From: Geothrix oryzae
GTDB taxonomy: Bacteria; Acidobacteriota; Holophagae; Holophagales; Holophagaceae
Reading direction: 5' to 3'
Length of the DNA stretch: 64,000 nt
Assembly: GCF_030295385.1 (NCBI RefSeq)
Contig: NZ_AP027079.1
Span: 1,426,001 to 1,490,000 of the forward strand
The translations under genes and the position numbers were made by a program. The notes under the pieces were generated by a model. The model searched no databases. It was given only the letters and a program-made list of their open reading frames with translations, and was not told the DNA's origin. This document shows, one piece after another, positions 27,169-40,475 of the stretch. Numbering within the stretch: the stretch's first letter is position 1; the number at the start of each line of letters is the position of its first letter.

Positions 27169-28242
27169 CTATCGGGGGATGCCCGTTCGGCGTGGCCCAT
27201 GGGATGAGAGGGTGCTTGTGGGTTCGCCAACGGAGAAGGACAGGCGGAGGTAGGTATAGGCGGGTGCCTCGCAGAGGGATCCACCCTCTTCGCTGAAGAG
27301 GTAGACCTCGTTCGTCCCGGGCACGGGCATGACGGCCTCAGGGCGGCACAACCCCTCGAATTCAGGGAACCGGATGCGCTCGGTCTCCCCTTTCAGCGAG
27401 CACAGCCAGAGGGAGTAGCCCGCGGCCTTGTCCACGGGGCCGCCGATCACCAGATAGGCGCCCAGGGCGGGCACATATTGAATGTCCCGGATGCCTTGGC
27501 CCTCCAGGTCGATCGGTTGCATCCGCACCTCAGGCCGATCCGAGAACGGCTTCGAGACGAAGGCGAGCAGGGCCTTGCCGCAGTTCAGGGCGAAGGCCTT
27601 GCCGAAGGTGGGATCCCCGAAGGCGGGGCCGTACAGCGGCGACCTCAGGCCGATCACCAGCGTCTCGGGCTGCCCGGGAACCCAGGAGAGGCCCTCGGTG
27701 TTGAGCCCGCCCCTCACGCCGAAGGTGGCGGCCACCCTCGAGTACCAGCGCTCGTCCGGGAGGCTCTTGAGGCCCTCCAGCAGCAGGTCGCGGATGACGG
27801 TGGCGCGTTCCTGGTGCACGAACCTCCGGGTGGGATCCAGGGTGAAGGAGGTCAGCAGCCGGTAGGACTCGGTATCCTCGTCCGCCTGGGCCAGGCTGGA
27901 GAGGACATAGAACTGCCCCCCATGGAAGGTGATGCCCTCCAGGTCCTTCTGCTGCACCACCCGGGGCAGGACGGCGCCCGCTTCCTCCAGGCGGTCCAAG
28001 CTCGCCACCCGGATCTCCGGGTGCTCCGAATTGAGCCCCCCGTCGTAGGCCAGGTAGGCCTTTCCCTCCACGCAGACGGCGCCGCTGAGATCCTGGCGCC
28101 GCGGGCCCTCCTTCGCGAAGGAAGGCGTCCTCCCCTTGGCGAGCACGCGGAACGAGGGGATGGCACTCCGGGCGACTCCCACCGACAGCAGCATGATCGC
28201 GATCTGGCGCACGAGGCGGGGCAAGGCATCTCCGTCAGGCAT
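27169..28242 (-). CDS. Secreted DUF3616-type protein
   Basis: 357 residues. A hydrophobic N-terminal segment (LVRQIAIMLLSVGVARSA) looks like a signal peptide. The rest is beta-rich with repeated blade-like strands (AYLAYDGGLNSEH, LEGITFHGGQFYVLSSL, GGLNTEGLSWVPGQPETLVIGLR), matching the DUF3616 family, probably a beta-propeller. No catalytic motif is evident and the role of the family is unknown. It starts 12 bases after the DUF4010 gene, the last clear member of the sigma-54-led operon A. A phytase-like activity is conceivable for a propeller in this context but is not supported by motif. Confidence 0.75.
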   Translation of the reverse strand: MPDGDALPRLVRQIAIMLLSVGVARSAIPSFRVLAKGRTPSFAKEGPRRQDLSGAVCVEGKAYLAYDGGLNSEHPEIRVASLDRLEEAGAVLPRVVQQKDLEGITFHGGQFYVLSSLAQADEDTESYRLLTSFTLDPTRRFVHQERATVIRDLLLEGLKSLPDERWYSRVAATFGVRGGLNTEGLSWVPGQPETLVIGLRSPLYGPAFGDPTFGKAFALNCGKALLAFVSKPFSDRPEVRMQPIDLEGQGIRDIQYVPALGAYLVIGGPVDKAAGYSLWLCSLKGETERIRFPEFEGLCRPEAVMPVPGTNEVYLFSEEGGSLCEAPAYTYLRLSFSVGEPTSTLSSHGPRRTGIPR

Positions 28243-28254
28243 GGGGTTGCAGCA

Positions 28255-29586
28255 TCACAGGAAGAAGATGGAATACAGGATCGAGAGCACCGCCAGCGGG
28301 ATCATCCCCATGGCGGCCAGGTTGGCGGTGCGTCGCGTGCCGAACAGGTAGGTGTAGGCCACCTTCAGCAGATTGTTGCTGGCGCTGGCGATGATGATGG
28401 CCTGCAGGATCTGGAATGTGCCGATGCCCAGGTTGCCTTGCAGCACGGAGACCACGAAGGGCGTGATGTCGGAACAGCCCACCAGGAAGGACAGCATACG
28501 CAGGCCCATGCCCTTGTAGTAGAGCAGGGTGTACTTCGTGGCCAGCGAGACCGCCACGAACATGACGGCGAAGAAGAGGGCGGAGTTGATCTCCAGGGGG
28601 TTCTTGTGCAGGGCCGGTTCTTCACCCTCCGTCGGTGGGATGCCTTCGGCAGGGGCTTCCGCCGGCACCGCCTCGGGGATGGGGGCGACCGCCACCGTCT
28701 GGTCGCGGCGGATCCAGAAGGCGTAGCCGGCGGCGAGGCCAGCCAGCACCAGCAGCGCCGGCCCGACCTGGAGGGCGGAGCTGATCCGGAAGATGGAGAC
28801 GAGCACCAGGAGGCGCAGGTACATCATGCAGACCGCCAGCAGGATCGCGGCGGCGGCCTCCTGGTCGTGCCCGGGGTGGCGCTTGGATTTCTTGGCCAGC
28901 ACCAGCACGGCCACCGTGCTGGAGTAGACCCCCCCGATCAGGCCCGTCAGCAGCATGCCCTTGCGGGGCACGAGGTAGGTCTGAAGCACATAGCCCAGGT
29001 ACGAGATGGTCGTGGTGATCACCACCGCCATCCAGATCTGCCGCGGGGTCACGGGCAGCACCGTGAAGATCTGGCCCATGGCCCCGGAGGTCGGCGGCAG
29101 GCTCGGGATCAGCGGCAGCACCACCCCGGCGATCGCCAGGAACTTGCAGGCCGTGACCACCTCGCCGGTCTCCAGCCGGTCGGTGAACTGGCGGATCCGT
29201 CCTTTCGAATGGAGGATGAACAGGATCGAGACGCCGAAGAGCACCAGGAACCAGTGGGGCTGGTGGAGCGCCACGGGCCCAGTGGTGTAGGTGAGCAAGG
29301 CGATGAGCACGCCGATGAGGCCGGGGCTCTTCTTCTGGCGCACCTTGTTGCTGTAGTAGACGAGCAGGAAGGGAACCACCGCGGCCATGCCCAGCAGGAA
29401 CGCGATCTGGCCGACCGCGGGGATCTGGTAGAGCATGAATCCCAGCATGCCGAGGAAGACGAAGGTCCGAACCGTGCCGAAGGTGTCGAACTTCTTTTCG
29501 CTCTCGTAGTAATCCCGCAGACCGATGCCGATCAGGGTGCTGATGGCGAGGGTCAGCAGGAAGGGCGCCACCTGGGGTGGAAGCAT
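28255..29586 (-). CDS. MgtC/DUF4010-type inner-membrane protein, copy 1
   Basis: 443 residues, about 12 hydrophobic segments. The N-terminal third resembles MgtC/SapB proteins (FLLTLAISTLIGIGLRDYYE, FGTVRTFVFLG), and the C-terminal two thirds match DUF4010 (KFLAIAGVVLPLIP, LTGLIGGVYSSTVAVLVLAKK, LGIGTFQILQAIIIASASNN). A charged, Pro/Ala/Glu-rich loop near residues 315-345 separates the halves. Start ATG 29586 (MLPPQ) aligns with the start of the paralogue at 31718. MgtC relatives are linked to Mg2+ and phosphate homeostasis, but DUF4010 has no proven transport substrate. It is part of operon A. Confidence 0.88.
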   Translation of the reverse strand: MLPPQVAPFLLTLAISTLIGIGLRDYYESEKKFDTFGTVRTFVFLGMLGFMLYQIPAVGQIAFLLGMAAVVPFLLVYYSNKVRQKKSPGLIGVLIALLTYTTGPVALHQPHWFLVLFGVSILFILHSKGRIRQFTDRLETGEVVTACKFLAIAGVVLPLIPSLPPTSGAMGQIFTVLPVTPRQIWMAVVITTTISYLGYVLQTYLVPRKGMLLTGLIGGVYSSTVAVLVLAKKSKRHPGHDQEAAAAILLAVCMMYLRLLVLVSIFRISSALQVGPALLVLAGLAAGYAFWIRRDQTVAVAPIPEAVPAEAPAEGIPPTEGEEPALHKNPLEINSALFFAVMFVAVSLATKYTLLYYKGMGLRMLSFLVGCSDITPFVVSVLQGNLGIGTFQILQAIIIASASNNLLKVAYTYLFGTRRTANLAAMGMIPLAVLSILYSIFFL

Positions 29587-29649
29587 GGGGACTCCGGGAC
29601 GGTGGAACAGGAGGAAGGGGCAATCATCAGGGAGGGGCCCCTTCGCAGG

Positions 29650-29683
29650 CCCCGGGGCGGCTCCCCCCGAAGCCGCCCCGGGG
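29650..29683 (-). terminator. Strong intercistronic hairpin
   Basis: Perfect 13-bp stem CCCCGGGGCGGCT / AGCCGCCCCGGGG with loop CCCCCCGA, between the CYTH-like gene and DUF4010 copy 1. There is no T-run, so it is more likely an mRNA-processing or stability element within the operon than a complete stop. Confidence 0.55.
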
Positions 29684-29706
29684 TGGGGCATGGATCCGGG
29701 AAGAAC

Positions 29707-30345
29707 CTATTCCATGCCCATGACGCCCTTGGCGGCCTTCAGGTAGTTGGTGTTCGGCATGGCGGCGATGCCGAGACCTTCGATCACCTGGCGCATGCCA
29801 TCGTAGTTCTCGCTCTCCGCGCAGGCGGATTCCAGCATGGCGCCGTTGAACCAGACCTGGGCGTACTCGCAGATGATGCCGTCAATGGTGAACCCGTAGC
29901 GCATCTTCTCGACGGCCACGGGAACCAGGTCGGGGTGCTTGCGGGCCATGGCGATGAATTCCTCGATGGTGTAGACATCCTTGTCCAGGGCCATCTCGGC
30001 CTTGAGGTGGGACAGGATGGTGGCCAGATCCTCCTTCTTCACGGGGAACTGGAACTTCCCGCGGGGCTGGAAGATCTCGTAGCCCTCGGGGGTCTCGCCC
30101 ACCTTGGTCTTGATGTCCAGCAGGCCGTCGCGCACTTTCACATTGGCCTCGTTCGTCTTCGCGCTCAGGAAGTAGGTCTCTTTGGGCATGCGGCGAGCCT
30201 GGAAGAGGACGGTCTTGCCGTTCCACATCTTCTCCTTCACTAGCTCGATGACGCCGTGGCCGAAGACTCGGAACTCGGCTCGGGGAATGAGCTTCAGGGC
30301 GTCTTCGGCGGAAGTGGCGGTGTTCTTGGCAAACACATCGGACAT
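29707..30345 (-). CDS. Diverged CYTH-like protein A, cytoplasmic
   Basis: 212 residues, no signal peptide or membrane segment. It looks like a distant CYTH/triphosphate-tunnel fold: an acidic-basic opening strand (RAEFRVFGHGVIELV), a strand pair TYFLSAKTNEANVKVRDGLLDIKT, and a C-terminal EYAQVWFNGAMLESACAE followed by the helix MRQVIEGLG and NTNYLKAAKGV. The canonical ExExK is not intact. It lines up by eye with the protein at 34606-35217 in all these blocks, so the two are paralogues within one operon. The ATG at 30345 was preferred over a much longer frame running upstream, which is antisense noise. Function unknown; binding of phosphate polymers is inference. Confidence 0.75.
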   Translation of the reverse strand: MSDVFAKNTATSAEDALKLIPRAEFRVFGHGVIELVKEKMWNGKTVLFQARRMPKETYFLSAKTNEANVKVRDGLLDIKTKVGETPEGYEIFQPRGKFQFPVKKEDLATILSHLKAEMALDKDVYTIEEFIAMARKHPDLVPVAVEKMRYGFTIDGIICEYAQVWFNGAMLESACAESENYDGMRQVIEGLGIAAMPNTNYLKAAKGVMGME

Positions 30346-30428
30346 GGGGTTGCTCCAGTGAGGGGTGGATGGGAGATCCATCCAGGGCGGGTGCCCCTGG
30401 GGGCAGGGGCGGGAAGATGCCACCGGGC

Positions 30429-31718
30429 CTAGAAAGCCACGGCGGCGTAGAGGAAGGAGAGGCCGACGATCCCCGCCATGCCGAGGGCCGTGAGGCGGGC
30501 GGTCTGGCGGTGGCCGAAGGCGAAGGTGTAGGCCGTCTTCATCACATTGTTCGAGGCGGTGGCGATGACGATGGCCTGAAGGATCTGGTGCGTGCCGATG
30601 CCGAGGTTGCCCTGCAGGACGGACACGATGAAGGGGACGATGTCGGAGGCGCCCACGAGGAAGGAGAGCATCCGGAGCCCCAGTTCCTGGAAGCGCAGCA
30701 GGACGAACTTGGTGACCAGGGACACGGTGACGAACATGAGGGCGAACAGCAGCGCGGCGTTCAGCTCGAGCGGGTTGCGCTCCTTGACCTCCACGACCTC
30801 GTCGCCCTCGGCCGGATCGGCGGCGGGCGCGCCGCCACGGCGCAGCCACCAGGCATAGGCCCCGGCCATCAGCGAGAAGAGCAGGAAGGGCGGAACGAGC
30901 CGGATGGCGCCCAGGGGCATGAAGGCTGCGACCAGAAAGAGGATCCGCAGGTACATCGTGGGGGTGGACAGCATGATGGCCGCGGCCGCCTCCCGGGCCT
31001 GGTGGCCGTGGGGGCGGGTCTTCTTGGAGATCACCAGGACCGTCATGGTGCTGGAGTAGAGTCCCCCGATCAGGCCCGTCAGCAGCAGGCCCTTCTTGGG
31101 GTAGAGGTAGGTCTGCAGCACATAACCGAAGTAGGAGATGGCGGTGGTCACCACCACGGCCATCCAGATCTGGTGCGGCCCGACGGGAAGCACGGCAAAG
31201 ATCTTCCCAGCCAGGCCATCCGCAGGCGGGACCGCCGGGATGAGGGGCAGGATGACGCCGGCGATCGCCAGGAATTTGCAGGCGGTCACCACCTCGCCGG
31301 TTTCCAGCCGATCCGTGAACTGTCGGATGCGGCCCTTGGAATGCAGCACGAAGAGGATGGTGACGGCAAAGGCGACGAGGTACCAGTGCGGTTCGTGGAT
31401 CACCACCGGGCCCACGCTGTAGGTGAGGAGGGCGATGAGCACGCCGATGAGCCCAGGGCTCTTCTGCTGGCTGACCTTGTGGTTGTAGTAGATCAGGAGG
31501 AAGGGCCCCACCACCACCATGCCCACCAGGAAGGCGTAGGCGCCGATGACCGGGATCCGGTAGAGCATGTGGCCCAGCAGCCCGAGGAAGATGAAGGTCC
31601 TGACCGTCCCGAAGGTGTCCCGCTTTCCTTCCTGCTCGTAGTATTCGCGCAGGCCGATGCCGATCAGCGAACTGATGGCGACGGTGAGGAGGAAAGGGGT
31701 GAACTGGGGTGGGAACAA
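30429..31718 (-). CDS. MgtC/DUF4010-type inner-membrane protein, copy 2
   Basis: 429 residues, strongly similar throughout to the protein at 28255-29586, including LTVAISSLIGIGLREYYEQ, LLLTGLIGGLYSSTMTVLV and LGIGTHQILQAIVIATASNN. About 12 transmembrane segments. I chose a TTG start at 31718 because it is preceded by GGAG at the right distance and gives MFPPQF, matching MLPPQV of copy 1; a second TTG lies four codons upstream. Two copies flanking a CYTH-like gene suggest a heteromeric membrane unit or subfunctionalised duplicates. Transport substrate unknown. Confidence 0.87.
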   Translation of the reverse strand: MFPPQFTPFLLTVAISSLIGIGLREYYEQEGKRDTFGTVRTFIFLGLLGHMLYRIPVIGAYAFLVGMVVVGPFLLIYYNHKVSQQKSPGLIGVLIALLTYSVGPVVIHEPHWYLVAFAVTILFVLHSKGRIRQFTDRLETGEVVTACKFLAIAGVILPLIPAVPPADGLAGKIFAVLPVGPHQIWMAVVVTTAISYFGYVLQTYLYPKKGLLLTGLIGGLYSSTMTVLVISKKTRPHGHQAREAAAAIMLSTPTMYLRILFLVAAFMPLGAIRLVPPFLLFSLMAGAYAWWLRRGGAPAADPAEGDEVVEVKERNPLELNAALLFALMFVTVSLVTKFVLLRFQELGLRMLSFLVGASDIVPFIVSVLQGNLGIGTHQILQAIVIATASNNVMKTAYTFAFGHRQTARLTALGMAGIVGLSFLYAAVAF

Positions 31719-31778
31719 ATGACGCTCCAAGGCGGCCGGGGCCGGCTGCGGGTTGATCGTGGTTGTGGGGTGGTCCGG

Positions 31779-32504
31779 CTAGGACCGCTTCCTGGACACG
31801 AGATCTTTGAAATAGACGAGGTAGAGCCCCGCGAGAACGACGCCGGCGACCAGCCAGCCGGAGGACCGGCGCCTCGGCACCACCTCCACGACCATGGAGG
31901 TGTCGTCGCCCTGGCGGAGGCCGGTGAACTGCAGGATGGCCGCCTGGTGGCCGTCGAGCCGGGTCAGCAGCACGCGGGGACCGATTTCTGATTTCTTCGG
32001 CTTCGGCAGCTGCTCGCGGATGGCCTGGGCCATCATGTCCTCCGGGAAGAGGAATTCGAACCGGTAGCTCCCGATGGCGGTTTCCTGGGTGTTCACGAAG
32101 GCGTGCCGGAAGAGGCGGCTGTTGGCCGGGAGGGTGCTCCGCTCGCCCGGTCCCAGCTGGACCTCCTGGATGGCCCGCTTCACCTCGAAGGCGATGCGGA
32201 GGGTGGCCGTGGCCGGCATGCCCTCGGGTAGGTGGAACCGGAGGGTGGTCATGCCGTTTCGCGGCCCGCACTCCAGGCCCACGCCGGCGGGCGCTTCCAC
32301 CAGCCGCGGATTTTCGGGGGAGGGAAAGCCGAGGGGCAGGCTGAGCGTGCCAGGCGTGGCGCTCGTGACGACCACGGTGGCCGTGGCCTGGCCCGACCCC
32401 TGTTCGTCGGCGTGGAGGCGAACCACATAGGACTGGATGTCCGTGGCCATCAGCAGGCTTGGCGCCAGGAAGGCCAGGAAGGAAAGAAGGCGGAGGATCC
32501 TCAT
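31779..32504 (-). CDS. Exported protein with C-terminal membrane anchor, unknown
   Basis: 241 residues. An N-terminal signal peptide (MRILRLLSFLAFLAPSLLMA) leads to a beta-rich extracytoplasmic domain of about 170 residues (repeated short V/T/S strands such as GQATATVVVTSATPGTLSLPL), then a single TM helix near the C-terminus (WLVAGVVLAGLYLVYF) and a basic cytoplasmic tail (KDLVSRKRS). The topology suggests a periplasmic sensor, receptor or accessory domain for the SLC13 carrier, with which it overlaps by 4 bases (ATGA). I do not recognise the family. Confidence 0.75.
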   Translation of the reverse strand: MRILRLLSFLAFLAPSLLMATDIQSYVVRLHADEQGSGQATATVVVTSATPGTLSLPLGFPSPENPRLVEAPAGVGLECGPRNGMTTLRFHLPEGMPATATLRIAFEVKRAIQEVQLGPGERSTLPANSRLFRHAFVNTQETAIGSYRFEFLFPEDMMAQAIREQLPKPKKSEIGPRVLLTRLDGHQAAILQFTGLRQGDDTSMVVEVVPRRRSSGWLVAGVVLAGLYLVYFKDLVSRKRS

Positions 32505-34066
32505 GGTGCCACCGCCCAGAATGCAGGTGTGATGCCCAGCCAGTGGAACCAGGTGGCCCCGGAGAGCACCAGGATCGCCACCCCGAGGGTGCAGGTGAGC
32601 ATGCCGTACTTGAAGTTGTCCGAAACCGTGAACTGGTTGGTGGAGAAGAGGATCACATTCGGCTTTCCGCTGATGGGCAGGCCCACCACCCAGTCGATGC
32701 AGAGGGCGGCGGGAAGCGCCAGCGACAGCGGATTCCAGCCCAGGGCCTTGGCCAGGGTGATGATGATCGGAATCATGATGAGGGTGCGGACGGTCTTCGA
32801 GGTGGTGAGCAGGTGACTGTACATCATCACGGAGATCACCACGGTGTAGGTGATTCCGAAGGGCACCCCCTTGAGGTTCATCCCCCCGAAGAGCATCCGG
32901 ACGCCCCATTCGGCGGCGCCGGTGTCGTCCAGGGCGAGGCCGCCCGCGTAGGCGCCCGCGCTGAAGATCAGCAGGTGCCAGGGAATGTCCGCCTCGGCCC
33001 AGGACAGGATGCCCCAGCGGGGGAAGAGGACGATCACGGCCCCCAGCAGCGCGGCGAAGGGCGCGCTGATCTCCACGCCGAACCACCGCATGTGGAAGAT
33101 GTCGGTCATCCACAGGAACAGCACCATGCCGAAGATGGCGATGGCCTTCTTCTCCTGGAAGCTCAGGGAGCCCATGGCCCGGTACTGCTCTCGGACCAGA
33201 TCGAGCCCGCCCTCCACCTGGGGAACCTGGTTCTCGGGCCGGATGCGGAACAGCAGTTTCTGCCCGAGGATCCACATGAGGAGGATGGTGACGATGGCCA
33301 CCGGCGCACCCAGACGCATCCAGTCCATGTAGTAGACCCGGTGCCCGCCCATGTTCTGGATGAGGCCCACCGCGATGAGGTTGGCCGAGCTGCCGGTCAT
33401 GGTGATGGACGAGAGCACCGAAATGCAGGCCAGGTTGAGCAGCATGAGGTTCTTGCCGAAGGCGTTCGGCGTGGCTTCCGTGGAGCCGTAGATGGTGGCG
33501 ACCACGATCATGAGCGGCAATGTCATCACGCACCGGGCCGCCGTGGCGGGGATGAGCGGCGCCAGGGCCAGCTGCAGGACCACGAAGGCCAGCAGGGCCC
33601 AGCTGGCCTTGTGGCCGAAGCGCAGCACCAGCCACAGGGCCATGCGCTTGGCGAGCCGGGTCTTCACCAGCATGGAGCTCAGGATGAAGGCCAGCAGGTT
33701 CAGCCAGATCACCTCCATCCCCAGGACATCCATGATGGCTTTGGCATTCGAGGTGCGCGTCACCAGCAGCAGGAACATGAGGACAAGGGAGGTGACATAG
33801 GTCGGGAAGGGTTCGGTTACCCACCAGACCAGGGCGAGCATGAAGCACGCGGCGCCGGACTGGGCCGACGCGCTCAGGCCCGCGCCGGCGGGCAGGTAGT
33901 AGATGAGGAGGAACAGCAGGATGCCGCCCGGGAATCCCAGGTAGCGCATCCACTGCTCGGTGGGGCTCTGTGCCTCCCTCACCTTCGAGGAGAGTGTCAT
34001 CTTCTCCATGTCCAGGAGTTCCTGGAGGGTGGGTGGGGCGTTGGCGGGTCGTGCTTCGGAATTCAT
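32501..34066 (-). CDS. SLC13/DASS family anion transporter
   Basis: 521 residues, about 11-12 TM segments. The divalent anion:sodium symporter family moves dicarboxylates, sulfate or phosphate. Key features: a first helix-hairpin SNT-like motif in TMTGSSANLIAVGL, a second one in ISGKPNVILFSTNQF, and the N-terminal LVWWVTEPFPTYVTSL. The N-terminus carries about 40 cytoplasmic residues. The carboxylate-type SNT motif is not intact (SSAN), so the substrate cannot be assumed; the phosphate-type porin and phosphatases in the cluster make phosphate, or another oxyanion, more likely. It lies within operon A and is coupled to the following membrane-anchored protein. Confidence 0.88.
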   Translation of the reverse strand: MNSEARPANAPPTLQELLDMEKMTLSSKVREAQSPTEQWMRYLGFPGGILLFLLIYYLPAGAGLSASAQSGAACFMLALVWWVTEPFPTYVTSLVLMFLLLVTRTSNAKAIMDVLGMEVIWLNLLAFILSSMLVKTRLAKRMALWLVLRFGHKASWALLAFVVLQLALAPLIPATAARCVMTLPLMIVVATIYGSTEATPNAFGKNLMLLNLACISVLSSITMTGSSANLIAVGLIQNMGGHRVYYMDWMRLGAPVAIVTILLMWILGQKLLFRIRPENQVPQVEGGLDLVREQYRAMGSLSFQEKKAIAIFGMVLFLWMTDIFHMRWFGVEISAPFAALLGAVIVLFPRWGILSWAEADIPWHLLIFSAGAYAGGLALDDTGAAEWGVRMLFGGMNLKGVPFGITYTVVISVMMYSHLLTTSKTVRTLIMIPIIITLAKALGWNPLSLALPAALCIDWVVGLPISGKPNVILFSTNQFTVSDNFKYGMLTCTLGVAILVLSGATWFHWLGITPAFWAVAP

Positions 34067-34082
34067 GCCGGAACCTGAAAGT

Positions 34083-34107
34083 GCGGGCCACCGGTGGGGT
34101 GGCCCGC
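34083..34107 (-). terminator. Intercistronic hairpin
   Basis: Perfect 10-bp stem GCGGGCCACC / GGTGGCCCGC with loop GGTGG between the CYTH gene and the SLC13 gene. It has no T-run; it is a candidate mRNA stabiliser or attenuator. Confidence 0.5.
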
Positions 34108-34117
34108 GGGAGAGGGA

Positions 34118-34591
34118 TTAGGCCTTGGTCCAGTTCTTGAAGGGGTGCTTCAGGAGGTTGGAGTTGAAGTAGCGCGGATCGCTGGAGACCTCTGCGCCGA
34201 CCCAGTCCGGCAGCGTGATCTTCTCACCTTCGGACGCCAGCTCCACCTCGGCCACCACCAGGCCTTCGTTTTCGCCATGGAAGACATCGATCTCCCAGGT
34301 CTTCCCGCCGTGGACTTCCTTGTGGCGGTGCTTGTCGATGAGGGGCTGCTCGCAGAGGTTGTCCAGGAGGATCGCGGCATCCTCCCCGGGAATCAGGTAC
34401 TCGAACTCGGCGCGGGTGACACCCGTGGTGATGCCCTTGATGGTGAGCTTGGCCTTCGTCCCCTCGATGCGCACGCGGACGACGCGTTCCTTCTGCGAGT
34501 TCAGGTAGCCCTGCTTGAAGTGCGTGCCTTCACTCTGGGGTTTCCAGGCGGCGAGGTTGACGAGGTACTTCCGTTCGATTTCCTTGGCCAT
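34118..34591 (-). CDS. CYTH-domain protein (triphosphate tunnel metalloenzyme)
   Basis: 157 residues, the size of single-domain bacterial triphosphatases such as the Nitrosomonas enzyme. The defining ExExK motif is intact at the N-terminus (KEIERKYLV). The tunnel strands follow with alternating basic and acidic residues: VVRVRIEGTKAKLTIKG, RAEFEYLIP, KHRHKEVHGGKTWEIDVF and GLVVAEVELASEGE. This fold binds a triphosphate inside a beta-barrel with Mg or Mn; members are tripolyphosphatases, thiamine-triphosphatases or adenylate cyclases. Without a tail or extra domain, short-chain polyphosphate hydrolysis is the likeliest activity. It is cytoplasmic and the third gene of operon A. Confidence 0.9.
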   Translation of the reverse strand: MAKEIERKYLVNLAAWKPQSEGTHFKQGYLNSQKERVVRVRIEGTKAKLTIKGITTGVTRAEFEYLIPGEDAAILLDNLCEQPLIDKHRHKEVHGGKTWEIDVFHGENEGLVVAEVELASEGEKITLPDWVGAEVSSDPRYFNSNLLKHPFKNWTKA

Positions 34592-34605
34592 GTCGAGGCT
34601 CCGAT

Positions 34606-35217
34606 TCAGTGTCTTGGGGTGGGATGGATTCGCAGGGCGTCTTTGAGTCCCTGCGGGTAGCTGGTGTTGCCTCGCGCTCGGAGTCCCAGGCGGGCGATGA
34701 CCTGGAGGGTCAGGTCAGGATCTTCGTGCTCCACGGAAAGGCACTCGACCCTGGCTCGGCGGATCGTAAGCCGGGCGAATTCGCCGCTGACGCCATCCAG
34801 TTCAAATATTTCGGATTGCTTCAAAATGCTGACGGCATGGACCTCGGGGGTATGCCGCAGGATGGTTTCCATGAACTGCGCTTGGGTGTACTCGGATCGG
34901 TCCAGCCTCGGGGCCGGGAGACCCCAGGCCTCGAAGAGTCGTGCCACCACCGAGGGCGGGCAGGGAAAGCCGGCGGAGAGGACCGGATCCCACAGTTCCA
35001 AGCCGCCGGGTCCCGTTTCCTTGCGCCACTTGAGCCGCACCGTGCCCTCCTGGATCTGGACATCGTGCATGCTCATCCGGCACAGGAGGCAGACATCCTG
35101 CGAAGTGACCGTTGGAGAGACCGACAACTCAGGGTGATCCTGTCGGAACGCGTCGAAGGACGGAGCGAAGGACCGCCATTCCCAACGGGGCATGTCTAGG
35201 GGAGCGGCCTTGCTCAT
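34606..35217 (-). CDS. Diverged CYTH-like protein B, cytoplasmic
   Basis: 203 residues, no signal or TM. Possible CYTH fold: opening PRWEWRSF (a W-E-W-R version of the ExExK strand), DVCLLCRMSMHDVQIQEGTVRLKWR, then helices and a closing GEFARLTIRRARVECLSVEHED, with the C-terminal LGLRARGNTSYPQGLKDAL. These blocks match, in order, those of the protein at 29707-30345, and the gene sits 14 bases upstream of the true CYTH gene. I infer a paralogous, diverged family specific to this system. Because metal-binding acidic residues are only partly conserved, it may bind rather than hydrolyse its ligand. Confidence 0.75.
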   Translation of the reverse strand: MSKAAPLDMPRWEWRSFAPSFDAFRQDHPELSVSPTVTSQDVCLLCRMSMHDVQIQEGTVRLKWRKETGPGGLELWDPVLSAGFPCPPSVVARLFEAWGLPAPRLDRSEYTQAQFMETILRHTPEVHAVSILKQSEIFELDGVSGEFARLTIRRARVECLSVEHEDPDLTLQVIARLGLRARGNTSYPQGLKDALRIHPTPRH

Positions 35218-35318
35218 GGATATCCCGGAGGCCAGAGGGTGATGGTTTGGGCTCGCGGCTCCCGGAGGCGGTCGGAGGAGTCACCGCGATGGGGGACCCC
35301 TCCGGACCGGATCCAGGG

Positions 35319-36644
35319 CTAGAAATTCACCTGCAGGCGGAGACTGGTGAAGGCGAAGTCATCGTTCACGATGCCGCCGTAGACCCCCTTGGGCTTGGCG
35401 TTCTCGTTGTTGTCCACCTTCGTGTAATCCATCATCCAGCGGATGTTCTTGTTCATGTAGTAGGTCAGGCCGAGGCTCATGTTCTTCGCCACGCCGCCCT
35501 TCACCGCATCCAGGGCCGTCAGATCGTCCTGGTCCATCTTGCTGTAGCGCGCCACCACTTCCCAGGCGCCGTTCTTGGAAGGCACCACCTTGCCGAAGAG
35601 GCCGTCGCTGACCTCGTAGGTGCGCTGGCCGCCGAAGACCCACGACACCTGGCCGTAGTAGGTGGCGAAGCTGTGATCCACCACGCTGGCCAGGGCGGCG
35701 GCGCCAGTGCCGACCGCGGCGCGGCGGTAGACCTTGGTCTGCTGGTACTCGCCCTGCCAGGAGAACGGACCCCAGACGCCCGCCAGCTCGGCGCCGTACT
35801 GCTTCCAGTTGTCCACATTCGAGATCTTCGCGTTCAGGAACTTCGCCTTGCTGATCTTCCCCGCCTCGGGTCGGCCGGAGAGATCCACCACATACTGCAG
35901 GCTCGCCAGGGGGGTGAGCGCCGTGGTGCTGTAGTCGGCGTTGGGCTTGCGGTAGGTGGTGGCCACGCCTAAGTGCACGGCCTTGGTTTCCGAGACGAGC
36001 ACGGGCGCGACGGTGAATCGGCCCGCGTAGCCCCAGCCCTGGTCCGAGCCGTTGGCGTCGAGGGAACCCGCGTTGTTCGTGTCGTCAATGGCCTGGCCGA
36101 AGAAGTTCAGCTTGGTCTGCCAGCGCTCGCCCCAGGTCTGGTAGGCGATGCCCACATGCCGGTCGGGCGTCCAGACATCGCTGTACGAGCGCTCTGTGAA
36201 CCAGATCGCGTTCGAGGAACTGAGTGTGTCAAAGCCGAAGGGGGCCTTGAACTGGCCCACCTGGATCAGCGTGTTCTTGAAGCCCTGGTAGCCCACCCAC
36301 ATGTCCTTGATAGAGGCGGTGCTGTCGGCGAAATCGTAGTCACCCTCGCCCAGCCAGTTCTTCCCGAAGGTGGCCTTGAAGCTGATGCGGGCGCGGCGCA
36401 GTTGGGTGCCGTTCGCCAGGCGGTTTTCGTTGCCGTTGAAGAAGACGGAATCCAGGTGGAAGCGGCCGCCGAACTTCACGGTGAATCCGCTGTCCTTGGC
36501 GTCGTCCTTCCTGGTCTCGAGCTTCGTCAACTTTTCGATCTTCTTCTCGAGATCGGACAGGCGCTGGTCCGTGTCCGCCGAGGTCTGGGCGAAGAGCGGG
36601 CCGGCCATCAGGGCCAGGGCCAGGGGGGAGATGAGAGCTTTCAT
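35319..36644 (-). CDS. OprO/OprP-type phosphate-selective porin
   Basis: 441 residues. A signal peptide (MKALISPLALALMAGPLFAQ) is followed by a short coiled coil (DQRLSDLEKKIEKLTKLE) and then a 16-strand-type barrel ending in the outer-membrane C-terminal aromatic LRLQVNF. Internal hallmarks of the phosphate/pyrophosphate-selective porins: FKATFGKNWLGEGDYDFAD, QVGQFKAPFGFDTLSSSNAIWFTERS and WEVVARYSKMD. It should let inorganic phosphate or pyrophosphate cross the outer membrane. Start ATG 36644 has AGGAG 8 bases upstream. It is the first gene of operon A, 101 bases from a sigma-54 promoter. Confidence 0.9.
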   Translation of the reverse strand: MKALISPLALALMAGPLFAQTSADTDQRLSDLEKKIEKLTKLETRKDDAKDSGFTVKFGGRFHLDSVFFNGNENRLANGTQLRRARISFKATFGKNWLGEGDYDFADSTASIKDMWVGYQGFKNTLIQVGQFKAPFGFDTLSSSNAIWFTERSYSDVWTPDRHVGIAYQTWGERWQTKLNFFGQAIDDTNNAGSLDANGSDQGWGYAGRFTVAPVLVSETKAVHLGVATTYRKPNADYSTTALTPLASLQYVVDLSGRPEAGKISKAKFLNAKISNVDNWKQYGAELAGVWGPFSWQGEYQQTKVYRRAAVGTGAAALASVVDHSFATYYGQVSWVFGGQRTYEVSDGLFGKVVPSKNGAWEVVARYSKMDQDDLTALDAVKGGVAKNMSLGLTYYMNKNIRWMMDYTKVDNNENAKPKGVYGGIVNDDFAFTSLRLQVNF

Positions 36645-36744
36645 GGGTTCGCTCCTAGGTGAGCTTGAACGCAGGTCACGCGGGCCTGCCGGTGGGGGAG
36701 TAGATGTGTCGCCCCTGGCGTGGACCCGGGGCCGTTTCTTCAAC

Positions 36745-36760
36745 AGCAAGCCCCGAGCCA
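36745..36760 (-). promoter_or_regulatory. Sigma-54 (-24/-12) promoter of operon A
   Basis: On the minus strand: TGGCTCGGGGCTTGCT, matching TGGCACG-N4-TTGCW with one mismatch and exact GG-N10-GC spacing. It lies 100 bases upstream of the porin ATG. Fourteen bases upstream is a GGTTAATTT box (36774-36782, plus-strand reading) that recurs at the same offset at the second promoter and may be a bending-protein site. Confidence 0.85.
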
Positions 36761-36836
36761 TTCTCTACCAGAAGGTTAATTTCTTTGATTGCCTTTAGAT
36801 AGGACATCGACATCCGTACTGCGGCAATGGCTTTGC

Positions 36837-36869
36837 GCGGAATCTCGCACACCCCATGCGGGGTTCCGC
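36837..36869. promoter_or_regulatory. 33-bp palindromic activator site of operon A
   Basis: Arms GCGGAATCTCGCA and TGCGGGGTTCCGC around a 7-base centre. It lies 77 bases upstream of the sigma-54 element, so its centre is near -120, where bacterial enhancer-binding proteins act. The same 33-bp element with the same spacing occurs at 41671-41703. Confidence 0.8.
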
Positions 36870-36901
36870 TCGCGGAAAGGGCGGGGGCCCCTGGGTCGGC
36901 A

Positions 36902-37705
36902 TCAGCGCGGCGAAGGGCGCCCAGCCTCCACCCAGGCCGCCAGCAGGAGGTCGCCGGTGCGTTCGGCGGATCGCCGGAGCTGCCGCTCAGCCACCGCCTT
37001 CTGCTCGTGCCATGGGCCTTCCTCCGCCGAAGGGGACCTTCGGAAGCCTTGTCGGAGGGGTGCCGAGTCCGCCGCCAGCAGGGCTGGCACGAGGGCATGA
37101 CTCTCGACCACCCAGCTGGACACAGCGCGGGGAAGATCCGCGGGCACCGCGGCCAGGCGGAGATCGGGGAGGCTCTCGACGCCCTGGCGCAATAGATCGA
37201 TCTCCCAGCGCCGGTGCACGCCCTTCTGCCCGGTCAGCTTGCCGTTCCGGTTCCGGGTGGTGTGGAGGGGCACCTGGGCATCGGCGACATAATGGCAAAG
37301 CCATCCGCTGGCCGTCACCACCGCCTCGGGCCGCCTCGACTGGAAGGCTTCCACGAGGAGGGCGTACCGCTCGGCGATCACCCAGGGGAGCTGACCGCTC
37401 TGCTCGAAGGCCCAGGCACTCACCTGGCTGCGGGCTTTCGCGGCGGTCAGCGGCACCTGGGCGGCGCCCCCATAGGTTTCACTGTAGATCCGGTGGCGGC
37501 CGACTTCAGCGGGATCCTGGTCCTTCCATAGGTCTGGCTCCAATGCGGCCAGGAGAAACTCCGGCTCCCGCCCGGCATACCAGCTCTGGAGGCCAGGCGG
37601 CAGGGTGGAGAGAGAGGCCTCCGCGGCCAACCGGTGGCCTTCCGGTCCCCAGGGCAGCAGAGGCAGGCCCGTGGCCAGCAGAAGGGCTGTGACCGACGGC
37701 CTCAC
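36902..37705 (-). CDS. Exported S1/P1-nuclease / zinc phospholipase C-like enzyme
   Basis: 267 residues. After a signal peptide (VTALLLATGLPLLP) the mature protein would begin with W-G-P-E-G-H-R, like the N-terminal Trp and His zinc ligands of S1/P1 nucleases. Other expected ligands: EPDLWKDQ, and HYVADAQVPLHTTRNRNG with HRRWE (H-x3-D plus H-x3-E). S1/P1 enzymes cleave single-stranded nucleic acids to 5' nucleotides; the related zinc phospholipase C cleaves phospholipid headgroups. Both release phosphate-containing products. Start is GTG 37705, overlapping the preceding stop (GTGA) and preceded by AGGAAG; a longer ATG frame to 37759 lacks support. Last gene of operon B. Confidence 0.8.
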   Translation of the reverse strand: MRPSVTALLLATGLPLLPWGPEGHRLAAEASLSTLPPGLQSWYAGREPEFLLAALEPDLWKDQDPAEVGRHRIYSETYGGAAQVPLTAAKARSQVSAWAFEQSGQLPWVIAERYALLVEAFQSRRPEAVVTASGWLCHYVADAQVPLHTTRNRNGKLTGQKGVHRRWEIDLLRQGVESLPDLRLAAVPADLPRAVSSWVVESHALVPALLAADSAPLRQGFRRSPSAEEGPWHEQKAVAERQLRRSAERTGDLLLAAWVEAGRPSPR

Positions 37706-38226
37706 GGCTTGGCTTCCTGGTCGGACGCCGGACCCGGGGGCAGGGGCCGCTGGCGACATTCCTCCAGGCCCGGCGTTCCGCCGCCGGGCTTGACCCGGAG
37801 CACCCAGAAGCGATCGAACCCCGCAACTTCCGGAAAGGCGTCCGGGTGCCCCAGGGCGCCCACCAGATCCGCGAGGGTGTCCGAGTGGCCGCAGACCACC
37901 ACGACCTGACCCGCATGCTGGATGAGAAGGTGTCGACCGAGCGCGCCCTCGCTTCCCCGTTCGTAGACTCGGATCGGAAGACCGAGCTGCTGCGACAGGG
38001 GCGTCAATGTCTGCTGGGTGCGGATCAGGTTCGAGGCGAACAGCGCCGTCGGATGGTAGGCCGCCAGATCGCAGGGAAGTGCGTCCGCTCGGCGACGGCC
38101 CTGGGCTGACAGCAGGGCGGTATCGCCCCGGTGGGCCTTCTCCGCGTGCCGGAGGAACACGACCACCGTGTCTTGGGCCCCAAGGGCGAGGCTCAGGATC
38201 AAGGAGAGCAGCAGGGACCGGAGCAT
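37702..38226 (-). CDS. Exported histidine phosphatase (SixA/RHG type)
   Basis: 174 residues. Signal peptide MLRSLLLSLILSLALGAQ, then the phosphoacceptor FLRHAEK (R-H-A instead of R-H-G, as in the SixA subgroup), the second Arg in SNLIRTQQT and the second catalytic His in VVCGHSDTLADL. The mature domain is short, as in SixA-like phosphohistidine phosphatases, but export suggests a periplasmic phosphomonoesterase. AGGAGG lies 6 bases before the ATG. It is coupled to the following nuclease-like gene by a 4-base overlap. Confidence 0.88.
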   Translation of the reverse strand: MLRSLLLSLILSLALGAQDTVVVFLRHAEKAHRGDTALLSAQGRRRADALPCDLAAYHPTALFASNLIRTQQTLTPLSQQLGLPIRVYERGSEGALGRHLLIQHAGQVVVVCGHSDTLADLVGALGHPDAFPEVAGFDRFWVLRVKPGGGTPGLEECRQRPLPPGPASDQEAKP

Positions 38227-38244
38227 GGGGGCCTCCTACTGGAA

Positions 38245-38271
38245 GGGGGGAGCGATAAACTCGCTCCCCCC
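38245..38271 (-). terminator. Intercistronic hairpin
   Basis: Perfect 11-bp stem GGGGGGAGCGA / TCGCTCCCCCC with loop TAAAC, between the Cache-domain gene and the histidine phosphatase gene of operon B. It has no T-run. Confidence 0.5.
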
Positions 38272-38298
38272 GGGGATCAGCCTGGCTGGAGGACCCGG

Positions 38299-38748
38299 CT
38301 AACCTTCGTACATGCCGCAGCAGATGACCATGCCGCCCTGGAAAGCGACCAAGGTCCGTTTCACCTGGGTCTGCATGTTGGCGGGATTGATCTTCGTCTC
38401 CTCGACCCAGCCGCCACCCTTCTTGCGGGCGAGGCCGATCCGCTCCTGGATGTAGAGCTTTCCGGATTTGTCCTTGGCGGCGAACTGGTTGCCGCCCACT
38501 TCCTGGGTCTTCTTGCCGTGGCCGATGACCTTGCCGTCGAGATCGTAGACCGTGAGGTAGAGCCGCTTGGTCTTCTGGACATTGAACCGCCCGATGGGGC
38601 GCGAGACCTCGTTCAGGAAGGCATCACGGGAATTCGCCTTGACGAAGCTGACGGCCTCCTTCACGAAGGCCTCGACCTCCCGGGTGTCCTGGGCCACCAG
38701 GACGGGACTGACCAGGGCGATGGGCATGAGCCAATGGGTGACTGACAT
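38299..38748 (-). CDS. Exported single-Cache domain protein
   Basis: 149 residues. Signal peptide (HWLMPIALVSPVLVAQ), then one Cache-type domain: an N-terminal helix VEAFVKEAVSFVKAN, LYLTVYDLDGKVIGHGKKTQEVGGNQFAAKDKSGK, and GGGWVEETKINPANMQTQVKRTLVAF, all typical of single Cache ligand-binding modules. Here the domain stands alone, with no membrane anchor or signalling module, so it may be a soluble periplasmic binding protein that reports ligand to a sensor. ATG 38748 has AGGAG 8 bases upstream. Confidence 0.82.
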   Translation of the reverse strand: MSVTHWLMPIALVSPVLVAQDTREVEAFVKEAVSFVKANSRDAFLNEVSRPIGRFNVQKTKRLYLTVYDLDGKVIGHGKKTQEVGGNQFAAKDKSGKLYIQERIGLARKKGGGWVEETKINPANMQTQVKRTLVAFQGGMVICCGMYEG

Positions 38749-38771
38749 GGGCACTCCTGATGACGCGGCGA

Positions 38772-39569
38772 TCACTCGCCCAGGTTCTTGGCGCCGGCCC
38801 AGCGGTACAGGCGGGGGTTGCCCTTCTCGTCCAGGGCCCGCTTGTCGGCCTCGGTGACCACGGACCGCTCGTAGTCGAGGGCCGCATCCCCGATGAGCCG
38901 GATAGCCTCGGCGCGCCCCTTGAATCCGGGGGAACTCAGGATCAGGTTGCCCTTCTTGTCCCGCCCCTTGTACGAGGTGAACCAGGTCTTCAGGATCGTG
39001 GTCGCCCCGGGGAACTTCGCGTCCAGTTCGTCCACACTCTTGCAGCTGGCGAAGGGGCTGCCTTCCAGGACGAGAATGACCTTGTCGTCAATCTCGCCGC
39101 CATCCACGAGGCTGAGGATCCCGATGGGCCGGGTCTTCACCACGGATCCGGTGGGAATCGCGGAGCCAAGCACCAGGACATCCACGGGATCGCCATCGCC
39201 GCCCTTTTCCTTGGAGAGGATGGTGCGGGGGATGTTGCCGTAGTTGCAGGGATAGCCCAAATACTGGACGAACCGGGGCGCGCCGTTCTTCTGCTCCAGC
39301 TCGATGAGGCCGGTCTTGATGCTGACTTCGTACTTGGCTGTGCTGCCCGCGGGGATCTCGATCACGGCGTTGACCGTACCATCCACATTGTGGGTGTCAT
39401 AGCCCGTGAAGAAGTTCTTCTCCCCCTTGAGCACGGAAACCTGCGGGGTTACCCCGGGCCCAGGTTCGGCGCCGGATAGAGGAAGGGCGCTCAGTCCCCA
39501 GGTCGCGGAAAGGGCCAGGCTCAGTCCGAACAGGGTGGCAACGGTCTTTTCTAGCGGTGTCTTTCTCAT
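38772..39569 (-). CDS. ppa: Exported family I inorganic pyrophosphatase
   Basis: 265 residues. The core matches soluble family I pyrophosphatase: AVIEIPAGSTAKYEVSIKTG, YPCNYGNIPRT and the metal-binding signature DGDPVDVLVLG, followed by GGEIDDKVILV. All catalytic aspartates of the signature are present. Unlike the usual cytoplasmic enzyme of about 175 residues, it starts with a clear signal peptide (VATLFGLSLALSATWGLSA) and has extra residues at both ends, so it should hydrolyse pyrophosphate in the periplasm. It is the third gene of operon B. Confidence 0.9.
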   Translation of the reverse strand: MRKTPLEKTVATLFGLSLALSATWGLSALPLSGAEPGPGVTPQVSVLKGEKNFFTGYDTHNVDGTVNAVIEIPAGSTAKYEVSIKTGLIELEQKNGAPRFVQYLGYPCNYGNIPRTILSKEKGGDGDPVDVLVLGSAIPTGSVVKTRPIGILSLVDGGEIDDKVILVLEGSPFASCKSVDELDAKFPGATTILKTWFTSYKGRDKKGNLILSSPGFKGRAEAIRLIGDAALDYERSVVTEADKRALDEKGNPRLYRWAGAKNLGE

Positions 39570-39617: not shown

Positions 39618-40475
39618 TCAGGACGGATCGTCGTTGTTGGCCGCCTTGGGCTTCTTGGCCTTCTTCCCCTTCACGGGCTCGGCCTTGGGAGCGCGAGCCT
39701 GAGCCTTCGGTGCGGCGACGGCGGGCTTGGCTTCGGCCTCTTCGACCTTGGCCGCGGGCTTGGCGGCCTTGGGGGTCGCCGGTGCCGCGGGCATCACGAT
39801 GAGGTGCGGCCGGCTCTTCTTGGCCGCATCGTCATAGGCCACATCAGGTCGCTTCAGACTCTCTTCCCGGATATCCTCGGGCGCGTATTCGAGCAGGTAG
39901 AACACCGGGCCCCAGGTGGCGGAACCCGGATCCACAACCTCGCGGATCAGCGCGGCGGCATTCACCAGCTGCTCGGGGGTGCGGTCCGCGTTGTTCTTGG
40001 AATACCGGCCGGACTTGTTGTTCACGGTGAAGGTGTTCGTGCCCTTGTCGTAGAGGATCTCGCCGCTGATGCGGCCCATGCCGCCCGCCAGGGCCGAGAC
40101 ATGCCCGTAGTTCTCCGTGGTGCCGGGCTTGCGCTTGGACTTGTCCTCGGGTCGGTAGAACCCCTTTTCGTAGGTGCGACCTAGGGGATGGGCGGCTTCC
40201 TGGATGATGCCCACGCGGCCTTCCGCATCAATCACCCAGTTGTACGGCGCGTGCTTGGGATTCAGGATGCCGGGGTGATCCTTCGTGGCCACCTGGAGGT
40301 AGGGGTTCAGCAGGACCTTTCCGCCCTTGTCGGCCTCGTAGTGCTTGATGTAGGCGGGCTGCTGGAGGGTGCCGTACTGCTTGTCCAGAAGGTCGGGATC
40401 CTGGCCGCCGAAGGCGGGGAGGAAGGTGCAGACCAGGGCTGTCCGCAGCAGGGATGGGGTGAGCGACATTCGCAT
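39618..40475 (-). CDS. Exported protein of unknown function with Ala/Lys/Pro tail
   Basis: 285 residues. Short signal peptide (LLRTALVCTFLPAFGG), then a globular domain of about 190 residues with distinctive blocks: YIKHYEADKGGKVLLNP, NWVIDAEGRVGIIQEAAHPLG, YEKGFYRPED and ENYGHVSALAGG. No cysteine or metal motif is obvious. The last 65 residues are a repetitive A/K/P/E-rich tail (PKAAKPAAKVEEAEAK and similar), which could bind cell wall or polyanions such as polyphosphate. I do not recognise the family. It sits between the secreted CYTH-like gene and the pyrophosphatase. Confidence 0.75.
   Translation of the reverse strand: MRMSLTPSLLRTALVCTFLPAFGGQDPDLLDKQYGTLQQPAYIKHYEADKGGKVLLNPYLQVATKDHPGILNPKHAPYNWVIDAEGRVGIIQEAAHPLGRTYEKGFYRPEDKSKRKPGTTENYGHVSALAGGMGRISGEILYDKGTNTFTVNNKSGRYSKNNADRTPEQLVNAAALIREVVDPGSATWGPVFYLLEYAPEDIREESLKRPDVAYDDAAKKSRPHLIVMPAAPATPKAAKPAAKVEEAEAKPAVAAPKAQARAPKAEPVKGKKAKKPKAANNDDPS

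Follow-up and report, generated by a model that had tools for sequence, protein, structure and literature searches.

Among the triphosphate tunnel metalloenzymes (TTM) are the polyphosphate polymerase of eukaryotes and several triphosphatases. The hallmark of the CYTH proteins is the ExExK motif (PMC8233210), and NeuTTM of Nitrosomonas europaea has been described as a specific tripolyphosphatase; what tripolyphosphatases do in bacterial physiology is unclear (PMC3440374). CHAD is a polyphosphate-binding module fused to TTM enzymes (PMC6537752), and the C-terminal part with which Escherichia coli PPX binds long chains is missing from short Ppx proteins (PMC3411833). Here we analyse a 64,000-nucleotide stretch of the Geothrix oryzae genome (Acidobacteriota; contig NZ_AP027079.1, positions 1,426,001–1,490,000), hereafter the window, to which the coordinates below refer unless a locus is named. 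It encodes two related proteins, A and C, of a family that most likely, judging from structure models, forms a branch of the triphosphate-tunnel (CYTH-like) fold not described before and that is nearly always accompanied by either of two unrelated polyphosphatases.

Proteins A (212 residues, 29707–30345) and C (203 residues, 34606–35217) are two members of this family in one operon. A preliminary description of the sequence had given both open reading frames, which we recovered at the same positions, adding that they lie on the minus strand. The block-by-block kinship that it had proposed was borne out by BLASTP (26% identity across 152 residues, E=4e-15), so that the two are homologues; with A as the query, the only matches in its own 3.27 Mb genome were A and C. 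Neither protein had a Pfam match up to E=1 or any NCBIfam match, in agreement with the earlier suggestion of a possible new family, and the literature searched yielded no published description of the family or of its pairing with Ppx.

A CYTH-type fold for both proteins is supported by structure prediction, on which the claim rests because profile comparison did not reach significance. The AlphaFold2 models, computed from family alignments, had a predicted local distance difference test (pLDDT) score of 90.7 and a predicted template modelling (pTM) score of 0.85 for A, and of 94.4 and 0.87, respectively, for C. In Foldseek searches of the PDB the top-ranked matches of both models were CYTH/TTM proteins (E down to 1e-7). 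VIA-align superposed A on 1yem_B with Z 13.3 (root-mean-square deviation 3.4, 152 aligned residues) and C on 1yem_A with Z 12.4 (3.5, 149 aligned residues); matches with lower Z included other tunnel-fold proteins, namely Mediator Med18/20 and RNA triphosphatases. Of the two checks proposed in the preliminary description, structure prediction pointed to a TTM fold for both proteins (best PDB matches at Z 12–13); hhalign comparison with CYTH was not significant. A search of PDB sequences with the family profile (hmmsearch) returned chance matches only, and proof of CYTH or VTC kinship from sequence alone was given up in view of the non-significant profile comparisons.

The same description regarded A and C as a paralogue pair. 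Their common ancestry stands, and duplication within this lineage is neither shown nor rejected: in a quick family tree A groups with members of the PRFEFR type and C elsewhere, both on long branches, and a constrained tree that keeps A and C together was not rejected (approximately unbiased test, p-AU 0.264). A recent duplication has no support from this tree.

When GTDB species genomes were scanned with a profile of 12 sequences, at least 551 relatives were confirmed. The 80 best come from Acidobacteriota, Bacteroidota, Ignavibacteriota, Spirochaetota, Synergistota, Bacillota, Pseudomonadota, Cloacimonadota and others; in Acidobacteriota, the phylum of the window, 16 of the 297 sampled genomes had a family match. 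One member, from an Oscillospiraceae metagenome-assembled genome (L139:7175-7759), has a single in-frame stop codon and was excluded. Open reading frames in the loci were called by simple rules.

A polyphosphatase is encoded near the family gene in 92 of the 94 loci analysed. It is a short Ppx/GppA exopolyphosphatase in 52 of them and a CYTH protein in 40, and in none of the 94 are both present; the two loci that have neither are a 7.3-kb contig and that of the most divergent member. Identification of the Ppx proteins is based on PF02541, TIGR03706 and similarity to solved exopolyphosphatases. The Ppx gene is always on the same strand as the family gene (52/52), lies within 150 nucleotides (nt) of it in 49 loci and is separated from it by a median gap of 23 nt, whereas a Ppx gene would be expected by chance within 10 kb in, by a rough estimate, about 1% of loci; the CYTH partner is within 150 nt in 29 of its 40 loci. 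Nine members are single-frame fusions, seven in Pseudomonadota and two in Acidobacteriota, in which an N-terminal tunnel domain is followed by Ppx. On the family tree the partner switched type six times or more (mean of 27 in shuffles), and for this reason the two unrelated phosphatases, Ppx and CYTH, appear to substitute for each other, which suggests that both can serve the same job. Association through shared phosphate regulation alone, of proteins that do not cooperate, would fit the many phosphate-related neighbours, which could form one regulon; the short gap to Ppx, the fusions, the strict rule of one partner out of two and the repeated partner swaps make this explanation very improbable.

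In the window the partner is of the CYTH type. The protein encoded at 34118–34591 (minus strand), which the preliminary description had singled out as a true CYTH protein between A and C, indeed matches PF01928 (E=1.7e-14) and contains ExExK. The solved structures closest to it are 3TYP and 2FBL, of which 2FBL is NE1496 of N. europaea. Its ExExK, Tyr29 and Lys52 are conserved across 13 aligned operon relatives; it thus has a dyad of the Tyr28/Lys52 type proposed in PMC3440374 and is a predicted tripolyphosphatase.

As noted earlier, ExExK is intact in neither A nor C, whose first strands read R-A-E-F-R (RAEFR, about 30268–30282, minus strand) and R-W-E-W-R (RWEWR, about 35173–35187, minus strand). 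This is not a change peculiar to these two proteins. R-x-E-x-R is found in 97–98 of the 98 members outside the C group and is, on the evidence of the alignment, a family signature and not decay. Among these 98 members, R22, E24, R26, F28, Y58, K70, R72, K79, K147, R149, E160 and Y201 (A numbering) are invariant or near-invariant, and K97, E177 and N198 likewise near-invariant; 11 charged residues and Tyr58 fall into this set. About eight basic and three acidic residues, all of them invariant, would line the modelled tunnel; this placement follows strand pattern and motif order and was not taken from coordinates. In the last strand only E177 is near-invariant, and its register relative to the metal-binding ExE of CYTH proteins is uncertain from the models.

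These residues bear on the question whether the family itself acts as an enzyme on condensed phosphate, by hydrolysis, by phosphate transfer or, like VTC, by polyphosphate synthesis, with Ppx or CYTH finishing or reversing the reaction. The invariant charges of the tunnel would suit such an enzyme, as would Tyr58 and Lys79, which correspond by motif order to the Tyr-Lys dyad proposed for NeuTTM, and the R-x-E-x-R first strand, which resembles R-x-E-x-K of bacterial VTC proteins. However, Arg stands in place of the first Glu of ExExK and the last strand has a single invariant Glu, so that a two-metal site of the usual kind is not intact, and the match to the VTC profile was not significant. The polyphosphate kinases PPK1 and PPK2 were both undetected in 14 of 33 family-bearing genomes, but many genomes are incomplete metagenome assemblies, and in Acidobacteriota the presence of PPK1 is unrelated to that of the family (11 of 16 genomes with it, 155 of 281 without). 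All in all, an enzymatic role appears doubtful, though a serious possibility. Replacement of a polyphosphate kinase by the family was not relied upon, since PPK1 showed no association with it in that phylum despite the 14 genomes.

A and C differ in how much of the tunnel they retain. A keeps R22, E24, R26, Y58, K70, R72, K79, K97, K147, R149, E160 and E177, the full set, as do all of its orthologues examined in the taxonomic family of the window. In C, Tyr is replaced by Cys, the K/R pair by Q/Q, a Lys by Ser and K-x-R by K-x-S. C orthologues retain R-x-E-x-R (with His at the first position in one), one Lys and most acidic residues, and progressively lose Tyr58, K70, R72, K97 and R149. The shared conserved pocket envisaged in the preliminary description is therefore complete in A and about half lost in C. 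Two C fragments in G297 have canonical residues wherever they are covered, which indicates gradual loss across the family; in G087 and G328, A is present and C is missing from the operon. The ratio of non-synonymous to synonymous substitution rates (dN/dS), calculated against the nearest relative, was 0.14 for A, 0.48 for C and 0.05 for CYTH. The intact frame and the value of 0.48 imply that C is relaxed yet constrained; it looks like a decaying or specialised copy, and its interpretation as a pseudogene was rejected for now.

The transporters in the 94 loci are of several kinds: TctABC in about 40, DUF47 with PiT in 35, DASS in 28 and a Na/Pi cotransporter in nine. Porin O/P is encoded in 31 loci, and a component resembling phosphonate-binding proteins occurs together with a histidine kinase and a response regulator in 17. 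Proteobacterial fusion loci hold PPK2 and SulP. In the taxonomic family of the window, two DUF4010 proteins that flank A stand in for the PiT pair. Such diversity of unrelated transporter families (DASS, TctABC, PiT with the PhoU-like DUF47, Na/Pi, SulP), as well as the location of A between two DUF4010 membrane proteins, might be expected if the family sensed cytoplasmic phosphate chains or nucleotides and gated the neighbouring anion or phosphate transporters, in the manner of eukaryotic SPX domains. Nevertheless, it is the phosphatase that is the constant partner and no single transporter is, and the fusions are to Ppx, with none to a transporter seen among the loci analysed. We consider a sensor unlikely.

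The reading that we prefer, for which the case seems to us evenly balanced, is that of a phosphate-chain-binding tunnel subunit that works with its partner polyphosphatase inside a phosphate-uptake module. We infer that the ligand would be an inorganic phosphate chain, which the tunnel protein would hold, thread or present to a short Ppx, sometimes part of the same polypeptide, or to the CYTH tripolyphosphatase; with partners that are separate proteins it might form a physical complex. The strongest evidence on function is the gene neighbourhood, with PPK2 in proteobacterial fusion loci and the pyrophosphatase of acidobacterial loci as further parts of it; the predicted fold, the conserved residues and the fusions also speak in favour. 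For the Ppx type, the C-terminal region missing from short Ppx proteins and the fusion of CHAD to TTM enzymes are precedents. The module sits in operons for the uptake of phosphate or other anions (porin, DASS or TctABC, DUF47-PiT or Na/Pi), and because of this setting its overall task is probably the acquisition and breakdown of condensed phosphates, breakdown being the proposed direction of the pathway. In the window, A is the intact copy, and C, directly upstream of CYTH and drifting, is a possible non-binding or structural partner. The preliminary description had proposed, as a hypothesis, that A and C are binding or regulatory subunits; it is the polyphosphatase context, which lay outside its view, that gives this idea its meaning.

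Several points weigh against this assignment. TctABC and DASS usually transport carboxylates or sulfate. The retained Tyr, Lys and Glu residues would permit catalysis too, and A of the window is four genes away from CYTH. The hhalign comparison with CYTH aligned the expected K-x-R and the strands that follow without reaching significance, as was the case for VTC (P=0.16). Finally, the public loci analysed were the best-scoring 80 of more than 551, many of them metagenome assemblies, and are a non-random sample.

If this is confirmed, the family would merit an entry in Pfam and would be of use in finding what orphan TctABC and DASS transporters carry. A widespread tunnel family that occurs with one or the other of two unrelated polyphosphatases, and is sometimes fused to one, offers a direct handle on the processing of phosphate chains in bacteria and on the transporters that feed it; the family probably supplies a piece that has been missing from bacterial polyphosphate use. 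A broader proposal, which we regard as rather unlikely, makes the family the core of an undescribed bacterial system for the uptake and use of condensed inorganic phosphates, in which pyro-, tri- or oligophosphate would enter through DASS or TctABC together with the porin. The tunnel protein would then hand the chains on to Ppx or CYTH or, where a known polyphosphate kinase is absent, act on them itself.

Comparison with described systems shows partial likeness to each. With CYTH/TTM proteins (PF01928; NeuTTM, YgiF, SaTTM and ThTPase) the family shares the predicted beta-tunnel fold and, by motif order, the basic x-x-R strand, the Lys strand, the K-x-R strand, the acidic final strands and the C-terminal helix. 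It differs from them in that R-x-E-x-R takes the place of ExExK, the last strand has only a single invariant Glu, Pfam gives no match and another polyphosphatase is the partner. The VTC polymerase domain (PF09359, Vtc4) has a tunnel fold, an R-x-E-x-K/R first strand and an acidic-x-K strand; the first strand of the family, R-x-E-x-R-x-F, is similar to R-x-E-x-K-Y of VTC, not identical. Unlike that domain, the family has no Pfam VTC match or significant profile match and a lower structural Z (7.9), the operon of the window showed no SPX or VTC membrane parts, and a VTC search of the window's genome found nothing. CHAD, too, is an accessory module that occurs with TTM enzymes and in polyphosphate operons, but it is all-helical, whereas the family is a predicted beta tunnel. 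The C-terminal polyphosphate-binding region of E. coli PPX resembles the family in the proposed role, that of a chain-handling domain (here of ∼190 residues) added to a short Ppx core, with an unrelated fold and fusion at the opposite end of the protein. In CYTH-type loci a catalytic tunnel would pair with a non-canonical one, like Vtc4 and Vtc3 in yeast: the TTM domain of Vtc3 is likewise a second tunnel domain beside the catalytic one, and its mutation had little effect on polyphosphate synthesis (PMC9911596). Vtc3, however, is eukaryotic, comes with SPX and membrane domains and acts in synthesis, not breakdown.

On the minus strand of the window the gene order is porin O/P, C, CYTH, DASS, a membrane-anchored protein of no known family, DUF4010, A and DUF4010. 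Only 14 nt separate the stop of C from the start of CYTH, and the DASS gene overlaps the next one, so the genes look like an operon, as had been proposed. No sigma-70-type promoter-like site was found in 28000–37000, which has no bearing on the operon question. The porin (PF07396, 35319–36761) lies just upstream of C, and its true start is probably near 36644. The DASS-family sodium-coupled anion symporter (PF00939, TIGR00785) is encoded at 32501–34066, and the protein whose gene overlaps its stop codon (31779–32504) looks exported, with a C-terminal membrane anchor recognised by eye. The DUF4010 membrane proteins, both identified by Pfam, are encoded upstream of A at 30429–31730 and downstream at 28255–29691, the latter with an uncertain start codon.

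Further upstream, also on the minus strand, is an inorganic pyrophosphatase (PF00719, 38772–39569) with a likely signal peptide, again judged by eye; in Acidobacteriota such a pyrophosphatase is found just upstream, including in L063-L066, which lie outside the taxonomic family of the window. Between it and the porin (36902–38775, minus strand) are a phospholipase C-like protein, an exported-looking histidine phosphatase and a Cache-domain protein, possibly a phosphate-scavenging cluster. An exported-looking protein without a family (39618–40475, minus strand) is kept beside the module in the window's taxonomic family and in L063-L066.

In Cloacimonadota (L082, L105, L110, L115, L121 and L126) an ArsR-type regulator precedes the tunnel-Ppx pair; in loci outside this set, that position is taken by LysR or by a phosphonate-binding-like protein accompanied by a histidine kinase and a response regulator. 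The genome of the window encodes a second CYTH protein of another type, starting with TELKLRIP (genome positions 237647–238060, minus strand; L055). In Pseudomonadota the fused tunnel-Ppx gene is followed by a second, unnamed tunnel-like protein (L097:11563-12396, L109:11540-12391, L111:10254-11108 and L116:10265-11152) with the pattern VELK, FFFDTP, VRARR, KLRP, which matches Pfam CYTH only at E 0.03–0.08. Finally, three family loci (L075:8291-9196, L113:17666-18601 and L102:3840-4796) encode proteins that have no Pfam family and show a similar pattern, SEYK / FxDT / LLR, two of them lipoprotein-like.

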